This document shows positions 36,711-53,506 of a stretch of DNA of 64,000 bases, one piece after another. The translations under genes and the position numbers were made by a program. This DNA is from Zarea fungicola (taxonomy: Eukaryota > Ascomycota > Sordariomycetes > Hypocreales > Cordycipitaceae), in NCBI GenBank assembly GCA_900169235.1, contig FWCC01000295.1:335-64334 (forward strand), in the 5' to 3' direction. The notes below the pieces were generated by a model that searched no databases, had not been told where the DNA came from, and saw only the letters and a list, made by a program, of their open reading frames with translations. Numbering within the stretch: position 1 is the first letter of the stretch; each line of letters opens with the position of its first letter.

Positions 36711-37211
36711 TTGTGCTTCTTCGTTTCCGCACCACCAGTTTCGGCTTGGAATTAACTTTGCTCTACAAATCGCACGTTTTCACTCTAGTTTTGACAGTTT
36801 AGGTAATTCTCAGCTAAAAATCCTATTTAATAAATTTTTTGATAAGTTTCAAAGCACATATGTGACCCGCTGAACTTGTAAATCGTAAGAAGTTGTTTGG
36901 CGATCCTTGAAACCAAACGGTTCATCCGAGCTCTGCATCAGGGGTTAGAACGGACGAAGAATGCGGGGTAAAGTGTATCTTTGACATTGCAACATAGTTA
37001 ATGGAGAATTATTCACATGACAGATGCGAAATTAGCCAAGCCGGACATGGCGGTCGCATTGCAGCCGGATCGAGAGTGTATCGGAGCGTCCCACCACGCC
37101 ACAGTCTGGGGATACAATCAGCAACTTTTGTATGTAAGTGACGACTATTTCCCGATTTGTACGTACAATTACACATAACAAAGAAAAGAATACTTTAGTA
37201 TACAAAGCGAG
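36711..37211. other. Intergenic region before the cyclase gene
   Basis: This is probably the 3' end of the transporter gene and the promoter of the cyclase gene. CCGG/CGG triplets near 37067-37085 could be Zn2Cys6 sites. No gene is present. Confidence 0.4.
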
Positions 37212-38240
37212 ATGAAATTGACTCTATCCAACACAGCCATCCATGAGATGTGCTACGATTCCCTTCCCGACCCACGTCGTGTATGGAACAGCCCGCCCGA
37301 CTCGCGCGAAGAAGGCCTAGGCCGCCTGGTCCTGCTGACCCCAGATGTAGTCGCCTCTGCCGCCGCCACGTGCATCAAGACGGGCCGTCGCACATGTCTC
37401 AACTGGGACCTCAACCGGCTGGAAATCGCCAACTTTGGGCGGCAGCCCGCGCAGCACCACATCACGTCGCTGCTCGGCGGCAAGGCCTTTGACGACGTGT
37501 ACATCTTCAACCCGCAGCAGTCCTCGCAGTGGGATGGGCTGCGGCACTTTAGCGCGCCCTTCCCGACCAGGGACGACGCCGGCCGGCGGCTGTACTACGG
37601 CGGCGTCGAGGCCGGCGACATTGTGGACCGCCGCAACACGCGCATCGGCATGCAGCACTGGGCGCGCGAGGGCATATGCGGGCGCGGCGTCCTGCTCGAC
37701 TATGTCGCGTACGCCCGGCGCCGCGGGATCCAGTACTCTGCCTTTTCCGACCACGCGATCCCGCTGTCCGTCCTCGTCCAGATCGCCGCCGAGGAGAACG
37801 TGACGTTTCGGCGAGGCGATATACTCTTTGTCCGCATCGGCGTCATTGACGAGTGGGAGCGGCGGATGGACGACGCGGATAAGCAGGCGTACGCGACCAC
37901 GTCGAAACCGCAGCACGCGGGCGTGGAGGGCACGGAGGAGATGCTGCGCTGGATCTGGGACCAGGGCATAGCCGCCGTCGCGGGCGATGCCATCTCCTTT
38001 GAGGTATACCCGCCGAAAAAGACGTACCCCAGAGCGGACGGGGAGGAGGCGGTGCCGGGACTGTTTCTGCACGAGTACATGCTGGCTGGCTGGGGGATGC
38101 CAGTCGGCGAGCTGTTTGACCTGGAGGAGCTCAGCAGGATATGCGCCGAGGAGCAGAGATGGGAGTTTTTCGTAGCGAGTATGCCACTGAACATGCCCGG
38201 CGGCGTAAGTAGTCCTTCAAACTGCGTGGCTGTCTTTTAA
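37212..38240 (+). CDS. Cyclase-family protein (PF04199-like metal-dependent hydrolase)
   Basis: This intronless frame of 342 residues matches fungal cyclase/kynurenine-formamidase-like proteins. Recognisable parts are RRTCLNWDLN, FDDVYIFNPQQSSQWDGLRHF, GMQHWAREGICGRGVLLDYVAYAR, FRRGDILFVRIG and the C-terminal FFVASMPLNMPGGVSSPSNCVAVF, where the Pro-Gly-Gly-V-S-S-P stretch is a family hallmark. Members hydrolyse amide or lactone bonds using a metal; the substrate is not known. The GTAAGT at the end of the frame is not taken as an intron, because the unspliced C-terminus already matches the family end. Codon use is GC-rich compared with the flanks. Confidence 0.82.
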   Translation: MKLTLSNTAIHEMCYDSLPDPRRVWNSPPDSREEGLGRLVLLTPDVVASAAATCIKTGRRTCLNWDLNRLEIANFGRQPAQHHITSLLGGKAFDDVYIFNPQQSSQWDGLRHFSAPFPTRDDAGRRLYYGGVEAGDIVDRRNTRIGMQHWAREGICGRGVLLDYVAYARRRGIQYSAFSDHAIPLSVLVQIAAEENVTFRRGDILFVRIGVIDEWERRMDDADKQAYATTSKPQHAGVEGTEEMLRWIWDQGIAAVAGDAISFEVYPPKKTYPRADGEEAVPGLFLHEYMLAGWGMPVGELFDLEELSRICAEEQRWEFFVASMPLNMPGGVSSPSNCVAVF

Positions 38241-38341: not shown

Positions 38342-41198
38342 CTATCCCTTACTATGAAAGCTTTCCAGGACCCGTTTCAGCTTCTCCGCCAAACCCCAGA
38401 ATCGCATCCTCTGCAACAGGGCTTGCGCGTGTTCACTAACACACTTCATACCAACTGGTGTGCAAAAGTCTTTGCATGTCGCGATGCTTGCCGGCCCACC
38501 ATGTCGGATCCATTCCACAATCATCTTCTTGTGGGCATCCTCCGATGACGAAGAATCCAATTGTACATGGGCATTGTTGGTGGTGGTTGGCCATCTGCTG
38601 CCGTTGCTGCCGACAGATGATGGCGCGCAAATCTCTGGGCAGTACTTGGCGACGGCAAGGATAAAAGCATAGCCCATGAATATGCGCAAAATCTCACAGG
38701 GCGCCGATACGGTGTATGTATTCGCCACGCCAATGATTTGGGCAGCGTGCCACGCGAGGCTGCGCGTCTGAGCTAGGTCTGCTTTGAAGAGCGACTCGAG
38801 GCGGCGCTCGGCTAGACCGACGTCGAGCTCTGGATACTGGAACCGATTGGCGCGGGGCTCCATGCTGCTGCGCGTGATGAAGACGACCAGGTCCATGACA
38901 TCTTCTGCTGTGCAGAGGTAATTGTAGTGGCAAATCAATCCGGTGATGCTGTGAAACACAGGTCTGTTAGTCACGGAGGTGGTGCGAGGCTTGGCATTGC
39001 TAAATAAATGCTAACTTTTACTTACTTGTAATTGATGAGCTCTGCAATGGAGCCAGGCGTGTTCATCGAGTCGGCCAACTTATCTAGACCATGTAGAAGC
39101 GCCGACTTGGTCTGTCGCTGCGCCGCAAACAGCGACTTCATGCCGAGAAAGTCGGACATTGACATGATCTGCAGCTGCTTCAGATCCCAGAGCAGACGCC
39201 CAATCACCTGAGCGCAGAGTCTCTTACCCCATGGTGGTAAATCAGTGTTTTGTTCAGGGAGGACGCCGGCTGCCAGCGTCTTTTGCAGCGCGTCTGGAAG
39301 AGAGGCATTCATTGTACGGTCAGAGTGGTGTGTTCGCAGCGCATTCCAGGCCGGTGCCGACGGAGCCTCCCATACAGCCTCTGGGCACGGCAACCTGGTC
39401 GGCAGCTCGGCAAGATCAACAGCGCCGCGCCGGTTAGTGAGGGTACTCAGCGTGCAGTCGTACTCAAACGACGCCCAAACGACCCTAATTTCCTGCTCTT
39501 CTTTTTTCCAGCGTATCCAGTCGTTGTACAGGGCGGATGCGTCGGCTGTTGGGGATGCTTTGGGTAGGCTGGGCCTGGTCTGTCCCAGAATTAATTGCGT
39601 TCCCAGAAGGCTCATACCGCGCAGACTGCCCATGAGCATGCCCCTGGAGCGGTCCGCGTTCTGGTATAGCTGGCGGTTTCCTGAGCCGAGAGAATAGATC
39701 TGATGTAGACAAGACGCACTCAGGTACGCTAAATCGTGGTAGTTTGTGCTGTCAGAGCCCCCCTAAAGAAATACGGTTAGAATAGCAAACCAATGCGGGT
39801 GAAATACGTAAGAGAGGCTCTCACCAGCCATGTAATCATCTGGTTACAGATGTCACTTAGTAATTGCGAATACGCAGCAGCACCGGGCTCGTCCGCAAAA
39901 ATGGCCCCGATGGATGCCATGGCTGCAAGCAAGACGGTCGGGCAGTCGTCCATGCTCCATGTTGGAACATGAACAATAGGAAGGATGGGATTAAATTCGT
40001 TGAGAAACGCATTGAGGGAGCGCTCCAGTGTTTTCATGGCAACCAGCGTGGCATGGTCCTGGATGTCGTCAAATTTGGGGAGGTATGCCCTTGACAGGAT
40101 TCGTACGAGTGCATCGGAGCTGTCTGAGAGATTGCTCGGTGCGAATGCGCCGTACAAGACATCTTGTAGGGGTGGTAGCTTGTACTTTTGCGGCACAGAA
40201 TCTCGGGTTTGGCCAAAGGGCCACTGCTGGGTATCCGCAGCTTCCTGAGGCCTGCCATCAGTAGGGTTGATAAATAGCTCCCCATGCGCCAAACTTGGAT
40301 GCGCTTGGGAATGTCGCATTTGCAAAGCAGCACCGTCGCTCGCAAGGGGAGACTCATCCAGGACGTCAACGCTACTGGCTGTTCCAAAATCCAGCCAGTC
40401 GAGATTGATGTTGCTGAATTCTGATCCCCACATTGCGAAACTAGTCGATGGCTGGCCCGGTGGCCTGAATAAGATCTCCTCGTTGAGGGTCGCGTAGGGG
40501 GTGTCGGGAGCTGGTTGCGCTGCCGAGGATTCCGCGCCATACTGGGGCAAGGTTTGATACGGGAACGCATTTCCGACAAGGGAATCATTCCCCAATGTAT
40601 CAGAGCCAGTGTCACAGTCCTCGATTCCCATGTCCATGTGCGCCACCATACCCTCGGAAGCCCTGCTGCAGGCATCCCCGGTGTCACCACCGCAAGCGGT
40701 TGTCTGAGGGCTTACCAAGGCCGTCCATTCATGACCCATATCTTGTTCGGCTGATATTTCATCGCCAGATGATTCAAGGCGCGAATGAGGGCTATACAAA
40801 GATCCTCCTGGGCGTCCAGACTCGCTGGCACTACCGGGCGCGGCCGCGTAGTCGCAAAAGACGCCCGCCTTGGTGCAACGGTGACATGGTTCGCCCCTGC
40901 TGCACTTGAGCTTCTTCTCTATGCACCGCTGACAAGATTTCCGTGCGCTGCGCCGCGATGATGGCTCCGACTTGTGTGTGATGCGCAAATGGCGGAGGAG
41001 AACATCGTTTCGAGAGAAGCTGGCGTTGCACAAGGGGCATGGGAGATGTCTGCGCTGGTGGGCGGGTAGATGGGAGTCTTTGTGCCGGGCTAGATGGCTC
41101 GGTCGCGTCAGCTTGATGCCACAGTCGGCGCACTGGTGCCTAGGTACAGCTGGAGACGCGATAGGATTTGGTGCACTTGATTTGGGCATTTTGGCCAA
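38342..41198 (-). CDS. C2H2 plus Zn2Cys6 transcription factor (fungal_trans domain)
   Basis: Exons 39825-41198, 39026-39762 and 38342-38948 encode 905 residues. Two C2H2 fingers (CADC...HKDSH, about 22-42, and CPLC...RITH, about 54-76) are followed by a Zn2Cys6 cluster (CQRCIEKKLKCSRGEPCHRCTKAGVFC, about 88-114). The middle is low-complexity and acidic. The C-terminal part carries the fungal-specific regulator domain: FNPILPIVHVPTW, LAYLSASCLHQIYSLGS, IRVVWASFEYDC. Such hybrid regulators control catabolic or secondary-metabolite genes in filamentous fungi. It converges on the cyclase gene with only about 100 bp between stops. The starts at 41198 and 41189 are both possible. Confidence 0.88.
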
Positions 41199-42396
41199 TT
41201 TTTAGTAGGGCGAGAGCTAGGCCATTAGATTGCGGTGCAGTGGTACAAGTCGTGGTGAGGCATTCCAAAAATTACAGTGCTCAGAATATGTCGGTCGCTG
41301 AAGTCTGACATGCAACAGAGCCGGAAAGTTATGCACCTCGTTAAGCGGAGGTGAGTGGCCGAGACAATGGAGAGATTGCACTTCAAGGTCTGGCCCCAGA
41401 TTATTGAATGCGGGGTTGAGATGAATCGTGGCTTATGATTAACTAGCTGCATGACTCGGTAACCAACTAGTGAAGAGATCACGGTCTTTCTTGTCTACCT
41501 TGTACATGGGATGCACTGTGGCAGATAATTCAATTAGCCATACCGCAGCCCATTCACTGCCTCCTATCGTCATGTAAGATATTATTCAATCAATAAAAAG
41601 TTCCCCGAGCAACATGATTCTACCTTGCATGGCTGACCCTGAAACAGTGGCAAAGCAGTAGATTGTGGGCATGTGGCACGCTCCGAGGCCACGAGTCCGA
41701 AGCCTTGTGGGGTGGTGGCTCTCCATCTCCGGCTCGGGAATGTCAAATTCTAGCTGAGAGGCGTCTGCAAAACTCGTCAGAAGAGCGGGACATGTATGTC
41801 CCTTCACTTATTAATATGCGCCACTAGCATCAAGGAGTGAAAGACATGTCGAGAGAAGACTTACATTTTAATACCAGAAATGACAGCCACTCGTTGCGTC
41901 CTATTTCCACTGTAGACCAAGCTTCACTAATTCTTCTTCCACAAGAAGTGCCTGGGTGCCTGGCGCATTTGCAAATGCTTGGTGAGTGGCATTCAGTACG
42001 GCGCTGTCGCTCATTAGAGCTCTCCTTTATTGACAGGTTTTATGGCGAAGACTACAAAAAGACTGCATTTACATGATTTAATCACATAGGCTCTCCAATG
42101 CAGTGTATAATCTGAGTGGAATATGGAATGGGAAATATCCAGAGTGTTAATGCGTGCAGTGAGAACGCAACCGTTCCGCGTAATGTCGCGTATTGCCAAA
42201 GCGCCTTGTGTAAAAAATAATTAAAAAATTACACCATCACGGGAACTGCAAATATTCCTAGAGTGAATTTTTTCCTCATCATGGCAGAGCCCGAGAATAA
42301 TGAGTATAAACAAACAGAACAATCTCATTGGAAGTTACATGGAATAAAACTAAAAGAGAAAAAATATACCCAAACCGCTCACAGTATTGTAATCAT
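41199..42396. other. Intergenic region
   Basis: Only short frames without similarity were seen. AT-rich patches lie at 42215-42400. The left part should contain the promoter of the transcription-factor gene. Confidence 0.4.
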
Positions 42397-44506
42397 CTAC
42401 GAGCTGACTCCAATACAATAATACTCGCCAGCCTGGAACTGAGTGTTACAGTTCGCGCCATTAGCTCCGAGCACAGTATTCCAGGCGTACAACTGGTCAG
42501 TCGAAATGCCGTTGTCAGAGGCAAACTTGGTACAGTAGTCGCCCGACTTGGCGATCTGGTACTTACTACAGTTGGCCACGATGCCGGACTGTGTTGGCAA
42601 TGGAACTGAAGGCGTCGTTGTGATTGTGGTGGAAGATGATGAGACGCCAATGCAGTAGTATTCGTTGGCTTGGAACTGTGTGGTACAATTGGCGCCGTTG
42701 GTTCCGAGCACAGTGTTCCAGGCGTATAGTTCATCGGTAGTGATGCCGTTGTCCGAGGCAAACTTGGAGCAGTAGTCGCCAGATTTGGCAATCTGATATT
42801 TGTTGCAATTGGAAGCGATACCGGATTGAGTGGGCGAGGGGGCAGGGCTACCCGTTGGGCTTGAAACTGGGGTAGTTGTGGTGGGTTGAATGGAGCCGTC
42901 GTTGACGCAGTACCAGTAGCCGGCCTGGAATTGCGTCTTGCAGTTGGCACCGCCGCTGCCGAGGACGGGGTTCCACTGGTAGAGTTGGGCTTGGGTCATA
43001 TTGGTCTCCATGGCAAACTGGTAGCAGTAGTCGTTGGGGTAGGCCTGACACCAGGTCTTGCAGCTGGAGAGGATGCCGTCTTGAATTGGGTCTGGCTGCT
43101 GGGCTGAGGTACACTGGACGGTGGCATTGCCAAACCTACCAGTACTGCTACCGTCGTTGCCTCCTTTCTGCTGATTTTGGTCGCTGCCGGAGCCAGGAGG
43201 TGGAGGAGGAGGGACGTACGAGCCTCCAGGGGGTCCGGCGCAGATGTAGTCGTTGGGTGTCAGGCTGTCGCAGAGGCCGTTGATGGAAGGATTCCAGCTG
43301 AGGAAGGTTGGTACGGTCACCGTGAGGTTTGACGTGGTCAAGGAAGATGCAATAGCATCGCAACTAAGGTTACCGCTGCTGGGAACCTGCGTCAGCTGGC
43401 ATGCCTTGGGCAAGCAGAAACCAGATCCGCTGGGCTGGCAGATAGTGCTGTTGGTGGCAGCTTGGACGGCACCAGTGGCAACCTTGAAGTAGGAGGCGAG
43501 CGATGCGCAGTTTCCGTTGGGGTCGATGGAGCTAGTGGTAATGTACTGGCCGTTGGAACAGCCTGGATCTGTGTAGACGCCCGTGAAGTTCAACGCTGGC
43601 GGCACGGCATCGGCATAGTTTGGTGGCATTCTGATGAGGAGCTCAGGATATTGGTCCGTTGCATTGCAGACGTCCAGGATGTCCTGATACTGCGCAATGA
43701 GGTAGTCCGAGTAATCCTGGTCGGGGAGGTACTGCGAGGTGGTTCGCTGGTACAACATCTGAACGAAACACTCGCTGCAGAGGACATCGTCGGTGTACAA
43801 ATTGGCCATGCGAGAGTTGTCAGGACTGACATAGGACGGGTCAGAGCAAGAAGGGTCAGATGGGTTGGCCGAGCAATCAGGTTGAATAAAGTCACTTCCG
43901 ACCCATTCTTGACTCTCGGTGAGACAGAACAAATACTCGTCATTGGTATCAGTAGAACTGCATAGGCTCGATTAGTATTGTGGACGCTGAATTTTGTGAG
44001 TGAGCGTGCGGGAAAATAAAAATACTGACTTTTGATTGGTGAGACAGGCAATGTTCATTCCATCGTTGTAACGTCCCGTCACATCTGATGCAGGAACGAC
44101 CTTGCCGTATGCGACCAGGTTGTCGTCTTGACAATTAAGGAAGACGTTGGTATCCCATGCTTGCACAGATGACCAACAGTCGTTTGTGCAGAGTTGGGTG
44201 AGGTTGTCAACTTCCCACCAGTAGTTGTCGACGGAGCCGGCCATGTTCAAGAGAGTACGATCGCATGGCAAAGATGCGTTCCTGTGCTGGATCAGCATAC
44301 CGTACGAGTTGTTGTGAGGACAAGTCCACATACATGGCATCCAAGCAGTTCATGGAGATGTTGAGTACAGTCGCCAAAGAAGATGGATCGACAGTCGGCC
44401 ACAGAGCGAAAGGGTCAGTGACAGGATCAGTATCGTTGGCATCTTGGGTAGACGCAACAGCCAATAGGCCGAAGGTCGCCGCCAAACCTCGCAATTGTGA
44501 TGGCAT
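42397..44506 (-). CDS. Secreted multi-LysM protein
   Basis: Exons 44334-44506, 44030-44281 and 42397-43957 encode 661 residues. The first intron begins GTATGT and the second GTCAGT; both joins keep frame and restore the family pattern around CLDA and CLTE. A signal peptide occupies about residues 1-17 (LAATFGLLAVAST). The N-terminal third is Cys-rich. Four LysM modules follow at about 339-384, 441-493, 523-577 and 605-659; the last two are near-identical (KYQIAKSGDYC, then LYAWNTVLG). A PPPPPPGSGS hinge and Thr/Ser/Pro spacers separate them. LysM binds chitin or peptidoglycan. The gene is divergent from the chitinase-nuclease gene with 1,032 bp between starts, the usual partner position of LysM genes beside subgroup-C chitinases, so common regulation is likely. 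Confidence 0.9.
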
Positions 44507-45538: not shown

Positions 45539-48500
45539 ATGATGTATCTTCGTTCTATACTTGCTCTCGTGGTGCTCGGGCAGGGGTGGGTCGAGGCAAC
45601 CAGTCCAACACATGGCACAAAACTGGACGCCCGAGGATATCAAGTGATCAAAGATGCTTTCAAATCGGACCTTGCACGTCGCGATCTCCCAGTCGGCACA
45701 TGTAACGCCCAAACACCATGCGTCAACGGTGCCTGCTGTGGCAGCGATAACTTCTGCGGTTACTCGCCCAAGCAATGTGGAACTGGATGCAGATTCAACT
45801 GCGACGCCAAAGCTGAGTGCGGCCCGTATGCCCCAGATGGCAAGCAAAGCTGTCCTATCAACGTCTGCTGCTCTGAATTCGGATTCTGCGGCAGCACTTC
45901 CGAGTTCTGTACATGGACCAACAAAGATGACTCGAATTACCCAACCTGCAGCACTAAATATGGTGGATGCGGTGACGTGAAACGTCCGTCCTGCGGAGGC
46001 GGCTCCAGTGTCTCCAAGCGCACCATCGGCTACTACGAGACCTGGGCCAACTCTCGCAAGAAAAGCCCTGTTGCTCCCGAAGACCTCAATCTAGACGGTT
46101 TCACTCACATCAACTTCGCCTTTAGCTTCTTCGATGCCTCTTCGTTCGAAATCACATCCATGGACTCCAATGCGGCGTCCCTCTACAGTCGCTTCACAGC
46201 CCTAAAGGGCAAGAAGAACGGCCTCCAGGCCTGGATCTCTATCGGAGGCTGGTCTTTTACGGACCCAGGCCCGACCCAGAAGGCCTTCTCCAACATGGTC
46301 AGCTCCCAAGGCAACCGTGCCAAGTTCATTGGGACCTTGAGACAATTCATGGACACCTACGATTTTGATGGAGTCGATCTCGACTGGGAGTACCCTGGCG
46401 CAGACGACCGTGGTGGAGTTTCAGCTGATACGGAAAACTACGTTGCTCTCGCCAAGGAAATGCGTGCGTCTTTTGGAAGCAAGTATGGCATGTCCATGAC
46501 TCTGCCCACGTCTTACTGGTACCTTCAGCACTTTGATCTGCCTGGCATTCAGGGCAGCCTTGACTGGTTCAACTTGATGGCTTATGACCTTCACGGCACT
46601 TGGGACAAGGCTTCCAAGTTCGTCGGTCCCTACATTGCCCCCCACACGAACATCACCGAGATCGATCTTGGCATGGACCTCCTCTGGCGCGCAGGTGTTG
46701 ACGCAGACAAGGTAGTCTTGGGTCAAGGCTGGTATGGAAGATCTTTTACTTTGGCTGATCCGTCCTGCAACGTACCCAATGGAAAGTGCCAGTTCTCCGA
46801 CGCTGCCAAACCAGGACCGATCTCCAATGCTGCGGGTATTCTGATTGATACCGAAATCAACGACATCATCAAGTCCAGCAACCTCCAACCAACATGGGAT
46901 AAGCAAGCTGGTGTTAAATGGGTACGTTCTAATATGACTAGACTATTCACGCAATTGCATTTCTTTGTGCTGTTCATATAATCACTTTTATTCTTTTATT
47001 CATGAAACTAATAACTTGACGTAGATCACTTGGGATTCCAACCAATGGGTCTCGTACGATGACAGCGACACGTTCAAGCAAAAGCGTGACTTGGCCAACA
47101 GCCGCTGTCTGGGCGGACTCATGGTGTGGGCTATGGATCAGGTCGATCAAACTGCACCCAACGGACTGGACCCTGGTGGCACGGATGTGACTTCTGATCA
47201 ACAGGACGACGCTTCACAAATGTCTGACAACCAGGCAGCTCAAATGACCTGCAAGGCCACTGACTGTGGCGAAAGCTGCCCAGCTGGCTCGAATCCTGTA
47301 ACACAAGTAAACGGAAACCCCGGCTCACTCAGCACCAAGGGTCGCTGCAAGAAGGGCAAGTACCGATCAATCTGCTGCCAAGGTGGTACTACCATGGGTA
47401 CTTGTCAGTGGCGAGGCTTTCGAGGCCACGGTCTCTCCTGCATCGGAGGCTGTGCTGATGGCGAGACTGAGGTTGCCACCAACACCAACAGTCACGAGGG
47501 CAAAACGGACCACACCTGCAATGGCGGTAAACAGAGCTACTGCTGTAAGGGGTTTAAGCCAAAATATTCCAAGGCTGAGCTCGAGAAGGACGCCAAAGAG
47601 GCTGCCAAGGCGGCCGCCGAGGCTGCTGCCGAGCAAGCTGCTCTTGATATTGCTGCCAAAGCCTTCTGCCGAGTCGCCGTACCTGCTCTTTTGGCGCCGT
47701 TGGAGCTTCTTGAAGACTTGATTCCCATCATCGGTGAGATATTGGACATTGCCGAGGTCGCCGCTACTCCTGCCATCATCCAAGCCTGTGTCAAGGGCGT
47801 TGAGAAGGAAGGCAAGGCTGAATTCAAGGTCTTTGGCAAGAAACACACTTTGAGCTTCAACAAGCCCACCGAGAAGCCAACCGCAACCCGACCCCCCATG
47901 AGCTCCCACGAGCCGCCCAAGACCAAGACGGACGACTCCTGTCCCAACGACAGGAAACGTCACGACTGTGATCGTCCCGAGAGGGGTGACGTGACCTCGT
48001 ACGACAAGGGTACCACCACTTTGTACGTCACCTCTACCAAGATCTGTAACGGCGGAGTCTGGCCACAAGCCTGCATGCACTACTCGTCCGCGATCAGAGA
48101 AAACCCCCGCAAGGGCTTCAACCCCGTCACTTGCTCCGAGAACGCTCGTCCGCGCCAGTTCATCCCCATCGGACCTGCCCTCAACCAATGGAACGCGGAG
48201 CACAATAACGAGTGGAAGAAGTGGCTGCGCCGCCCAGCCATTGGAAAGCGCCCTGGCCAAGGTTGCGAGCGTGATGAGTGGCCACCAGCGCATTTCTGGC
48301 AGGGCGACCCTGGCCAGGTTATACGTTATAACCACCGTGAAGATAACGCAAGTGCCGGTCAGCTGTGGAGGCAGTTCTGTCCCGAGCACGCATCCTCCAG
48401 ATGTGTGCCTGGTAGCGGTAACGTCGAGAAGCCTCCGCGAGGCAGGAAGACTACTCACTGTGAGAAGGAATTGACGATCAAAGGTTTGTTCTCGCCGTTC

Positions 48501-49219
48501 TTTCATGTTTTGTTTTTTTCAACGTCCACGGCGCATGAAACTAAACTGATTATGATGTAGTCATGGAGCTCGACTTTGAAATGGACGACGTTCCGCTCGC
48601 GCAACTCAGAGACGACGGTCTAAGCGCCAACGAATGCTATCCCAAAGAGCTCATCGATGACCCGACCTTTGCCCTCCTCAACACCGACAACTACTTTAGA
48701 CGCAACAAGGGATCTGGTCCCCGTGACTGGTCGCAAGCCCCGTCTGCCCAGCTCATCAATGGCCGCAGCCCGCCCTACGGTAAACGTGGGCTGGAATTCC
48801 AAAGGGAGCAGTTCGCATGGGATGACGGCAACTCTTCTCGCCCATTCACTGATGACGAGGCAGAAGCCATTGCTGATCTGCCATGGTGGGAGGAGGACGA
48901 GGCCAAAAAGCAGGATGCCCTTGGATATGTGCCGTGCTTGGGCGATGACTGTGCCACGGAGATTACGCGCATTGCTAGGTATGTCACTCCCTTGCATCAC
49001 CAACATCAGCTTCCCGTGACAATACTACAATCACTAACCTTTTTGCGCGTCAACAGGGAAACCATCATCCCAGTCCCTAGGACTGCGCCCAGCGTTGCCC
49101 AGGCCATCGCTACTCCCGAGGTTGCCGTGCCAGAGGAGGTTCCGGTTTCTGCTGGTTCGGCGTCCTCCAGGCCTTGGTTGAAGCAGCCCGCTGCCCCGAT
49201 GGTCACGGGTCTGAGTTAA
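45539..49219 (+). CDS. Killer-toxin-like GH18 chitinase with a C-terminal NucA/NucB-like nuclease domain
   Basis: Exons 45539-46921, 47025-48483, 48561-48978 and 49057-49219 give about 1,140 residues. In order: signal peptide (1-20); Cys-rich ChtBD1-type chitin-binding region (about 55-142); GH18 barrel with DFDGVDLDWEY, catalytic Glu about 284; a second Cys-rich block (about 548-645); an Ala/Lys/Glu helix, then a hydrophobic segment (about 666-716, LLAPLELLEDLIPIIGEIL); a Pro/Thr linker; and a domain (about 790-915) with DEWPPAHF and a later EDNASAG that resembles the DE-[YW]-P and E-N-x-x-[QA]-G motifs of NucA/NucB DNases. The tail after about 920 is unassigned. Chitinase carrier plus cargo nuclease is the plan of yeast zymocin-type killer toxins, where they are separate subunits. 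Nuclease activity is inferred, and no break is seen. Confidence 0.82.
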
Positions 49220-49464: not shown

Positions 49465-49545
49465 CTAGTTGTCTTTGTCCTCGTCATAGTCCTCGTCATA
49501 GTCCTCGTCATAGTCCTCGTCATCGTCCTCGTCCTCGGAGCCATG
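49465..49545 (-). pseudogene. Acidic-tail coding repeat behind two in-frame stops
   Basis: On the minus strand this segment reads Gly-Ser-Glu-Asp followed by repeated Asp-Glu-Asp-Tyr units and ends with TAG. It is in exactly the same frame as the last exon of the gene at 49570-50482, from which it is separated by TAA (49570-49572) and TAG (49546-49548). The 12-nt unit (GACGAGGACTAT) is tandemly repeated three to four times. It looks like the former or alternative C-terminus of that gene. Confidence 0.55.
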
Positions 49546-49569
49546 CTAGTTGTCATGCGGACCTGGCGG

Positions 49570-50482
49570 TTAACGGTTGATTTCATGCAGATTATTTCCC
49601 GGCTCCGCCATTCGATCCTTGATAGTCCTGTGCCATTCCTGCAGGGCATCACGACATTCACCACGACGAAAATTATCCGGCCATCCGTGATGACGGTAAA
49701 TTTGGCGGACCTCCTATAGAAGAGCATATATGGATTAGTATCTCACCTCAGACGTAAGGCTTTGGGAGGATCCAAACTTACATCTGTCGCATTGTCGTAT
49801 CGTAACAGCATGCCCTCTTCGTCGTCGAATGGATCAACGGTCCATTCTAGACTGCGGAAGCGCGCTTCCCACAGGCTGAAAAACTCAGCCATAGGCCGAG
49901 TCTCTCTAGAGTGCCAGAAGTCGTTGGGGTTAGTTTCTGCACTAGTCTCGGAAGCTTTCAAAGGTCCTCCGGGCTGATAGTCGCTAAATGTGTCTACATG
50001 GTAAGATGAGGTTAGCGAGAATCTCCAATAGTAGCCAAGACAGGAACAAGAGTTGAACTAGAGCACTCACTCTTCTCCGTGTCTAGTAGAACTTGACTCC
50101 CGTAAGATCCTGGGCCGTCGTCTGCAGTCAGGACAACAACATGAGGAGGGAATTCGAGGTTTCCATGGGGAATCCATCTGTTTCTGTCACCAACCGCAAC
50201 CTCGGCGCCCCTGTAGTCAAGAGCTTCGGTTGCAAAGGCGATCTGAACATTGGACCCGCTGCTATATTTGATGTACGGTAGATGGCGTAGAACATCAACG
50301 ACTTGCTTGGTTTTTTCCAGACCAGCAAGCGACGCCTCGGAAATGCTTGACCAGCCTTCCTCCGGAGGGTATTCCACACAGTCCGCTGGAATGGCCCCCA
50401 GTTCCTCGACTAAGAAGTTGTAGTATTTCCGCACAGCATCGACAGCCGGCTTCCAGGATGGTTCGACAGTACTGCCACTCAT
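49570..50482 (-). CDS. Conserved fungal protein, candidate immunity partner (SMI1/KNR4-like?)
   Basis: Exons 50071-50482, 49782-49993 and 49570-49713 encode 255 residues; both introns keep frame. The start is MSGSTVEPSWKPAVDAVRKYY, then LVEELGAIPADCVEYPPEEGW, LRHLPYI, the strand PPHVVVLTADDGPGSYGSQVLLD, an acidic loop with FDDEEG and a final IYRHHGWP motif. The protein is soluble, acidic and without a signal peptide, so cytosolic. This pattern of a PPEEGW loop, a VVVLT strand and a late HGWP recalls fungal proteins annotated as SMI1/KNR4-like, whose bacterial relatives include nuclease immunity proteins (SUKH superfamily). I am not sure of the family. It converges on the chitinase-nuclease gene, so an immunity role is a reasonable hypothesis. 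Confidence 0.65.
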
Positions 50483-52007: not shown

Positions 52008-53506
52008 ATGGCCGAAACGAATCGCATGGTGAATTTCAGTGAGGAAGAAGCCCAATGCCAGGTCAGCGACGAGAAGAGCACTACAGCTCCGGATGAGTTC
52101 CCAGATGGGGGATTGCAGGCGTGGCTAGTTGTTTTAGGGGCCTTTTTTGCCCTGTTTTGCAGTTTTGGATGGACAAACTGTAAGTCCTCATGTCTCTCAT
52201 GTCCCACCTGAGTGAAATGTAGTTCTCACTGTTGCTTGAAAGGTGTCGGCGTATTCCAGGCTTACTACGAAACCCATCAACTGAAATCATACTCGCCCAG
52301 CACGGTGTCGTGGATTTCGTCGCTCAACATGTTTACGCTAATGTTCAGTGTAAGCAATGTCAAGCTGTTTTTGTCTTTCCATTATCCTTGAGAATCAATT
52401 GCTGACAGCCGTTGTAATGCAAGGCTCCCTTTGTTGGGCGCCTCTTTGACCGGTTTGGTCCTCGCGTCCTGCTACCAATTGGCACTCTTTTGCACGTATT
52501 CGGTCTGATGATGGCGTCGGTTTCGTCAAAGTACTACCAGTTTATTTTGTCTCAAGCCATCTGCAGCCCTATTGGCGCGGGAATGGTTCTATACCCTGGC
52601 TTCGGCTGCGTGGCAACCTGGTTCAAGACCCGCAGAGCCTTGGCAATGGGCATAACGGCCAGTGGCTCGAGCTTGGGAGGCACTGTCATGCCAATCATGG
52701 TCGATCACTTGATGCAGAAGATTGGTTTTGGCTGGACCATGCGCGCCGTCGCATTTCTCATGCTTGGGCTGCTCATCATCACGAATCTAACCGTAAAGTC
52801 ACGGCTCCCACCCCGACCAAAGGACGTTGGTCCGTTGGACTTTTTCCGGGCTTTCAAAGACCCTGCATTCTCGCTTACAGCACTGGCTTCTTTCTTTTAT
52901 GCCATGGGCATGTTTATTCCCATTACCTTCATGGTGACGTACGGGGTGCATGTGGGCATGTCCGTGTCTCTAGCCGGCTATCTTGTTACCATATTCAATG
53001 CGGCCAGGTATATGCCATCGAGTCTTTTTTCCTTCGTTGATAGAGATGCATGAAAGTGAGCTAACTGTTTCAATAGCGGAGTTGGGCGTATTTTGTCTGG
53101 TCATATTGCCGACAAAGCAGGCAACTACAATGTCTCAATCGTTGCTGCCTGCCTCTCCACCATTTTCACGCTTTGTCTGTGGCTTCCTGGCCATACCAAT
53201 TCGACTGCCATTGCCTTTTCCGCCCTCTTTGGCTTCAGTTCCGGTACATATACGGCTCTCACCCCCGCCCTCGTCGCACAAATAACGGACATTAGCGATA
53301 TCGGTACTCGTTCCGGTGCTATTTACGCACTCTCCTCGTTTGCAGGCCTGGTAGGGAGTCCTATTGGCGGCTTACTTCTCACAAATGCGGCTGGAAGCTA
53401 TTGGAAGCAGCAGGTTTTTGCTGGCGTAATGCTTGGCGTTGGCGCGCTCTTCTTTTTAGGTTGTAAACTATACCTAGCAAAATGGCGTTTATTTACAAAG
53501 GTATAG
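52008..53506 (+). CDS. MFS transporter, monocarboxylate-porter type
   Basis: Exons 52008-52179, 52243-52349, 52424-53007 and 53077-53506 encode 430 residues; phases match at all three introns. The N-terminal tail is soluble and acidic, then [19 protein letters not shown] opens the first membrane helix, a family hallmark of fungal MCT-like proteins. [46 protein letters not shown] and [15 protein letters not shown] follow, with about 12 predicted helices. Relatives carry monocarboxylates, riboflavin or unknown solutes at the plasma membrane. The C-terminus is short and basic. No catabolic partner lies next to it. Confidence 0.9.

Follow-up and report, generated by a model that had tools for sequence, protein, structure and literature searches.

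Chitinases of the killer-toxin-like kind occur widely in filamentous fungi, and their presumed role is to open cell walls for other molecules (available text of PMC8715425). We asked what such an enzyme might deliver at a locus of Zarea fungicola, within a window of 64,000 nucleotides (the whole stretch of DNA that was analysed), where one gene appears to join such a chitinase to a nuclease. Is its product delivered into other cells, and what might then protect the producer? The answer that we favour as probable is a single-chain, chromosomal, zymocin-like killer toxin with a NucB DNase as its warhead and a SUKH-fold protein as its candidate immunity partner.

The gene lies on a contig of 190,793 bases (C396) in a genome of 43.1 Mb and 456 contigs. 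Splice search and translation yielded four exons on the forward strand and a protein of 1,140 aa, in full agreement with the coordinates, the three introns and the length of about 1,140 residues given in the original prediction. Alternative GT-AG choices allow 8 open-frame combinations (1,129 to 1,145 aa), and the frame also stays open when intron 3 is retained. Homologs align to the 1,140-aa protein over most of its length, and several homologous gene models, themselves predictions, span the junctions up to residues 1139-1140, which supports assigning the C-terminal exons to this gene. The computed domain order is a signal-like start, CBM18, GH18, a Cys-rich region, a hydrophobic segment, a dibasic linker and the C-terminal region, with features as follows (window coordinates).

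45539..49219, plus strand: chitinase–nuclease gene, four exons
46922-47024, 48484-48560 and 48979-49056, plus strand: its introns (splice search)
45539..45598, plus strand: probable signal peptide, about aa 1-20 (hydrophobic N-terminus, 12-residue mean 2.1; its end is a guess)
45815..45913, plus strand: CBM18 chitin-binding module, aa 93-125 (Pfam PF00187, E 3.1e-9; two stretches counted)
46019..47141, plus strand: GH18 barrel, aa 161-500, intron 1 inside (Pfam PF00704, E 1.8e-67)
47214..47561, plus strand: Cys-rich region, aa 525-640, conserved in the family (median pair identity 0.64)
47637..47795, plus strand: aa 666-718, helical and hydrophobic, proposed to cross the membrane (hydropathy)
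47955..47960, plus strand: KR, aa 772-773, a Kex2-like dibasic site at the carrier–nuclease junction
48024..48386, plus strand: NucB-like nuclease core, aa 795-915
48270..48278, plus strand: RDE motif, D878/E879 corresponding to Asp93 and Glu94 of Bacillus NucB (BlNucB; alignment to NucB)
48342..48359, plus strand: DNASAG motif, N902 corresponding to BlNucB Asn117 (HMMER alignment to DNRGAG of NucB)
48561..49219, plus strand: C-terminal tail, aa 948-1140, intron 3 inside, with conserved Cys973, Cys1073 and Cys1078

Within the carrier, the predicted chitin-binding region and GH18 domain with an intact catalytic Glu are both there as Pfam matches, with Glu284 sitting in the GH18 motif (DxxDxDxE, here DGVDLDWE, aa 277-284). 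Among the 86 homologs with a nuclease-type C-terminus (type A, see below), this Glu is kept in all 72 that cover the site, while 14 do not reach it; the GH18 median pair identity within this type is 0.73. A Pfam scan from the first Cys of the Cys-rich region through to the linker gave no match. The Pfam matches thus comprise GH18 and CBM18, the combination that marks Group C killer-toxin-like chitinases. The same scan found no LysM (CBM50) within the 1,140-aa protein, a LysM protein being encoded in the adjacent gene, and we therefore name the protein a killer-toxin-like chitinase rather than filing it as a typical LysM-bearing subgroup C member.

42397..44505, minus strand: LysM protein gene, head to head with the chitinase–nuclease gene (Pfam LysM, E 1.3e-11 in ORF 42397-43971; start set by eye)

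Such a divergent LysM/chitinase arrangement is known for tal and chitinase genes of Trichoderma (available text of PMC4392113). Group or subgroup C chitinases such as tac6, beside tal6, resemble the Zarea protein in having GH18 and CBM18 and an adjoining LysM gene (PMC8715425, PMC4392113, in the parts available), but they differ in carrying LysM in the same protein (PMC4392113). The word nuclease is absent from the main texts of two papers on such chitinases (PMC8715425, PMC8042737).

We are highly confident, from the predicted fold and the catalytic residues, that the C-terminal domain is a NucB-type nuclease. The Foldseek best match of the model is NucB (E 0.01, prob 0.98; next match E 1.1), the first three VIA rows are all NucB, and the predicted structure has the bba-type fold of this enzyme. 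A family profile compared with 177,635 distinct PDB sequences returned two matches at E<=10; their E values are weak (1.4 and 1.5), but both are NucB, so the resemblance goes beyond chance. With BlNucB (PDB 5OMT/6EJS, a bba-type DNase) the domain shares the fold, the RDE and DNxxAG motifs, the Asp, Glu and Asn residues and an equivalent of the His, H813 being at the place expected for His53. Unlike BlNucB, which is a 110-aa free enzyme, the Zarea domain is fused to a chitinase, is only about 24% identical and has a long extra tail. The DEWPP and EDN sequences highlighted in the original prediction lie at residues 878-882 and 900-902; NucB mutants at the catalytic Asp/Glu are inactive (available text of PMC5758888).

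Sequence models, by contrast, fall short. PF14040 scored 15.9 bits on a 257-aa piece and 17.0 bits on a 188-aa piece against a curated cut-off of 23.8 bits, used here as the detection threshold; the full-length protein alone gave no nuclease in the Pfam scan, a six-frame genome search with PF14040 gave 0 matches, and the C-terminus had no match in NCBIfam. Going by the Pfam and six-frame results without the fold test, the nuclease assignment would look wrong. What stands of the proposed NucA/NucB-type nuclease is the fold and the catalytic residues, by which the proposal survives the refuting condition set in the original prediction; the match to the PF14040 profile remained sub-threshold, and we accordingly call the domain NucB-like by fold and active site and do not file it as a member of that Pfam family. 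A second copy of linker plus nuclease was not found in the genome (2 candidates scored), and pattern scans confirmed no relatives of the nuclease in bacterial genome contigs (23 matches) or of the SUKH protein or nuclease in viral contigs (45 and 21 matches, respectively).

The protein might also be a killer-toxin-like chitinase working on the wall of the fungus itself or of a competitor, its NucB fold serving binding and not DNA cutting. Group C chitinases are believed to make walls permeable to other molecules (available text of PMC8715425), and both the sub-threshold PF14040 score and an Asn in place of the His53 equivalent in 25 of 81 relatives would suit such a role. We nevertheless regard it as improbable: 85 of the 86 type A rows keep N902 and all 86 keep D878/E879 (rows chosen by that motif), at a median pair identity of only 0.33 across the domain, and catalytic residues kept while the nuclease drifts look like selection on catalysis.

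How widespread is this architecture? Two homology searches (best 120 of 144 and best 120 of 150 matches) yielded at least 137 proteins; together with the Zarea protein, 134 of 138 contain the anchor FKVFGK and 126 have >=120 residues beyond it. These 126 tails divide into 86 of the nuclease type (type A), 35 of a second type (type B) and 5 nuclease-like tails kept out of the 86, their motif being missing or altered; 12 of the 138 fall outside the type count (4 without the anchor, 8 with tails <120 aa). Type B was selected by NNC in 32 of 35 cases and by eye in three (P0085, P0129, P0099). The counts rest on the matches listed, so that further C-terminal types may exist, and the named sources among these matches are fungi, many rows being metagenome fragments. 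The closest named relative among them is from Aureobasidium subglaciale (84%).

Type B tails keep the pattern HY...G...NNC..F. Weak LRAT/PPPDE signals, below Pfam cut-offs, were seen in 2 of the 5 type B tails scanned and in P0096, which suggests that type B may have a permuted papain-like fold. P0096 itself is a metagenome protein of 1,706 aa whose gene model fuses LysM repeats to a second-type chitinase, an echo of the LysM gene adjoining the Zarea chitinase. One and the same carrier junction thus bears two types of C-terminal domain, and a tree of the carrier region (121 sequences, 86 type A and 35 type B) has one change between them, with support 87/87. This single switch counts against a strong polymorphic-toxin claim; frequent C-terminal shuffling was expected and is not claimed here. 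To judge from the alignments, the carrier nonetheless stays conserved while the warhead changes fast, as would be expected of toxins.

If the nuclease acts inside other cells, it has to get there. Hydropathy windows of 19 residues scoring >1.2 span aa 666-718, so the strongly hydrophobic stretch predicted at about 666-716 is real, albeit borderline for a membrane helix (best window 1.61); it is helical in the structure model, but at low pLDDT. The region around it (641-735) has a median pair identity of 0.76, the highest of eight regions compared. Farther downstream, a KR or RR is found no more than 16 residues from the linker Cys in 68 of the 86 type A proteins and in 34 of the 35 of type B, compared with a background of 8.3%. 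There are nine dibasic sites in the Zarea protein, two of them within the nuclease. The conserved junction is a plausible place for cutting by Kex2, which would release the C-terminal domain. A zymocin-like delivery role would agree with the very conserved hydrophobic segment and with this Kex2-like junction.

There is a simpler way to combine two such enzymes. A secreted degrader would attack chitin by its GH18 and extracellular DNA by its NucB-like domain, whether to feed, to disperse biofilms or to escape DNA traps, much like secreted bacterial NucB; it would enter no cell, and the SUKH gene nearby would be unrelated. BlNucB is indeed a secreted, biofilm-degrading enzyme (available text of PMC5758888), the Zarea protein begins with a signal-like N-terminus, and at least 54 GH18 exon matches in the same genome indicate that chitin degradation matters to the fungus. 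We consider this reading unlikely: the most conserved of the regions compared is the hydrophobic one, for which an enzyme acting only outside cells would have no obvious use, the nuclease evolves quickly, 35 relatives have a non-nuclease domain on the same carrier, and a leaderless SUKH-fold gene adjoins the chitinase–nuclease gene.

That gene, the LysM gene and the second C-terminal type are additions to what the original prediction contained. It converges on the chitinase–nuclease gene across a gap of 350 bases, in otherwise ordinary surroundings.

49570..50482, minus strand: convergent neighbour gene, 255 aa, introns 50070-49994 and 49781-49714 (gene model); proposed immunity protein
37179-38240, 39777-41201 and 52418-53053: ordinary neighbours (putative cyclase, C2H2/Zn2Cys6 transcription factor and MFS transporter)

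The neighbour lacks a hydrophobic leader, has no match in the Pfam scan, and a genome search did not find a second copy. A SUKH reading was first raised from the sequence and put to a fold test later, using a model of the 94%-identical homolog P0138 (pLDDT 74.4, pTM 0.74). Its Foldseek best match is Knr4 (E 0.045, prob 0.85), and 13 of the 15 VIA entries listed for it are SUKH-superfamily structures. The homolog's predicted model thus has the SUKH fold (Knr4/Syd/YobK). By sequence, however, 0 of 30 members of the neighbour family match SUKH Pfam models at E<=1, a profile search of the family matched no SUKH chain, and a PADLOC scan of five SUKH homologs found nothing, hence we call the neighbour SUKH-like by fold only. 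In the region 49537-49572 it stops where relatives go on with a short RQPPGP... tail, and similarity to these relatives extends several residues beyond its stop codon.

Such a pairing has a bacterial parallel. The ComI nucleases of a 2012 survey of polymorphic toxins are presumably the NucA/NucB family, an equation suggested by the survey's text on the B. subtilis competence nuclease. In its available text, the survey reports ComI (DE motif) from both ascomycetes and basidiomycetes and gives Imm-ComJ and Imm-SUKH as the immunity proteins that go with it (PMC3482391). Bacterial Tox-ComI/Imm-SUKH systems share with the Zarea locus a C-terminal DE-motif nuclease on a delivery protein and a SUKH-fold neighbour; they differ in having bacterial secretion modules, whereas the Zarea locus is fungal, with a chitinase carrier, convergent gene order and an immunity gene that is a candidate (PMC3482391). 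We put the chance that the neighbour is the immunity partner of the nuclease at about even.

The neighbour could alternatively be a general Smi1/Knr4-like regulator that lies here by chance, or a guard against other toxins, a reading that we take seriously while holding it to be somewhat doubtful. Its best fold matches are yeast Knr4 itself, and SUKH homologs occur in Talaromyces proteolyticus (94%), [Torrubiella] hemipterigena (84%) and Cordyceps javanica (82%), for which no toxin is named among the matches listed, as well as in Aureobasidium (about 52–60%). The first three species would fit orphan immunity genes or argue against pairing. Elsewhere in the genome, Pfam recognises one SMI1_KNR4 gene (C403) and 0 SUKH_6 matches; with recognisable SUKH genes this rare, a chance SUKH beside a nuclease looks improbable, although further ones may be missed too, the neighbour itself being invisible to Pfam.

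Linkage also speaks against a stray regulator. In Aureobasidium melanogenum, the partial gene model P0149 joins a SUKH homolog (pieces 49–73% identical) to LysM-protein repeats (54–76% over short pieces) in the order and strand of the Zarea locus, although Pfam calls no LysM in it; SUKH–LysM linkage thus recurs in another species. The contig that carries the toxin homolog P0001 has 32,132 bases, as does the one that carries the SUKH homolog P0152; most simply, they are the same contig. P0138, P0139 and P0140 (82-94% identity) come from species of different fungal classes, while P0142-P0145, from Aureobasidium, are at about 60% or less. Such a patchy distribution with high identity across classes is unlike that of a housekeeping gene, though orphan immunity genes could look alike. 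The pattern suggests possible horizontal transfer, at which the discordance between the closest relatives of SUKH protein and toxin also hints.

Returning to the killer toxin, which we think is probably what the protein is, its action can be sketched as follows. After secretion, CBM18 and GH18 would bind and cut chitin in the target cell wall, steps that follow from well-known domain functions. The conserved hydrophobic segment may then aid membrane passage of the C-terminal part. A Kex2-like cut at KR772-773, suggested by the conserved dibasic site, would release the NucB-type DNase, which, given its fold and active site, could degrade the DNA of the target. In the cytosol of the producer, the SUKH-fold protein may shield against the DNase.

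A toxin that joins chitinase and NucB is, as such, not a new idea. A protein of the linear plasmid pDH5A of Debaryomyces hansenii, ORF2, was reported in 2021 with the same suggestion of a killer toxin (available text of PMC8472843). Like the Zarea protein, it is one secreted chain of 1,226 aa, which combines chitin-binding and GH18 domains, a transmembrane region and a DNase NucA/NucB fragment preceded by Kex2 sites; unlike it, it is encoded on a yeast cytoplasmic plasmid and not in a 43-Mb fungal genome with a wide family, it includes a LysM/autolysin part, and the available text names no SUKH gene (PMC8472843). Zymocin of Kluyveromyces lactis and related plasmid toxins likewise combine a chitinase alpha part, a hydrophobic part and a nuclease warhead, as far as available descriptions go. 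There, however, the gamma subunit is a separate, plasmid-encoded tRNase, in contrast to the single Zarea chain, which carries a NucB-type domain and is encoded on a 190,793-base contig. The points that appear to be new are the breadth of the family among filamentous ascomycetes, structural evidence of its NucB fold, a second kind of C-terminal domain at one and the same junction, and a SUKH-fold neighbour that is a candidate immunity gene; among the titles and abstracts listed, mostly from outside subscription journals, none reported SUKH pairing or two C-terminal types in filamentous fungi.

The family offers a testable warhead (a NucB-type DNase missed by Pfam), a conserved site at which the protein may be cut and, in the next gene, a candidate antidote, and it is a direct test case for fungal SUKH proteins other than Smi1/Knr4 as immunity proteins. 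If the toxin reading is true, toxin–immunity logic, including that of the bacterial SUKH class, extends to chromosomal fungal warfare. A more far-reaching proposal, which we advance tentatively and at slightly less than even odds, is that filamentous fungi possess a chromosomal counterpart of bacterial polymorphic toxins, with chitinase carriers, a Kex2 junction and interchangeable warheads of at least two kinds (a NucB-type DNase and a weakly LRAT/PPPDE-like domain with H...NNC), the DNase form being locked to dedicated SUKH immunity and LysM genes in a conserved three-gene locus.

The genome encodes further chitinases with LysM and CBM18 signals, some below the Pfam cut-off, ahead of GH18 (G000:C160, loci L013 and L035; G000:C410, locus L014), and these have long, differing C-terminal extensions without a Pfam name. 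A phospholipase-like motif in the L013 chitinase was dropped, Pfam lending it no support. Close to the L014 chitinase, G000:C410:26469-26774 (L036, 1470-1775) encodes a small protein that contains Cys and has a leader-like start.
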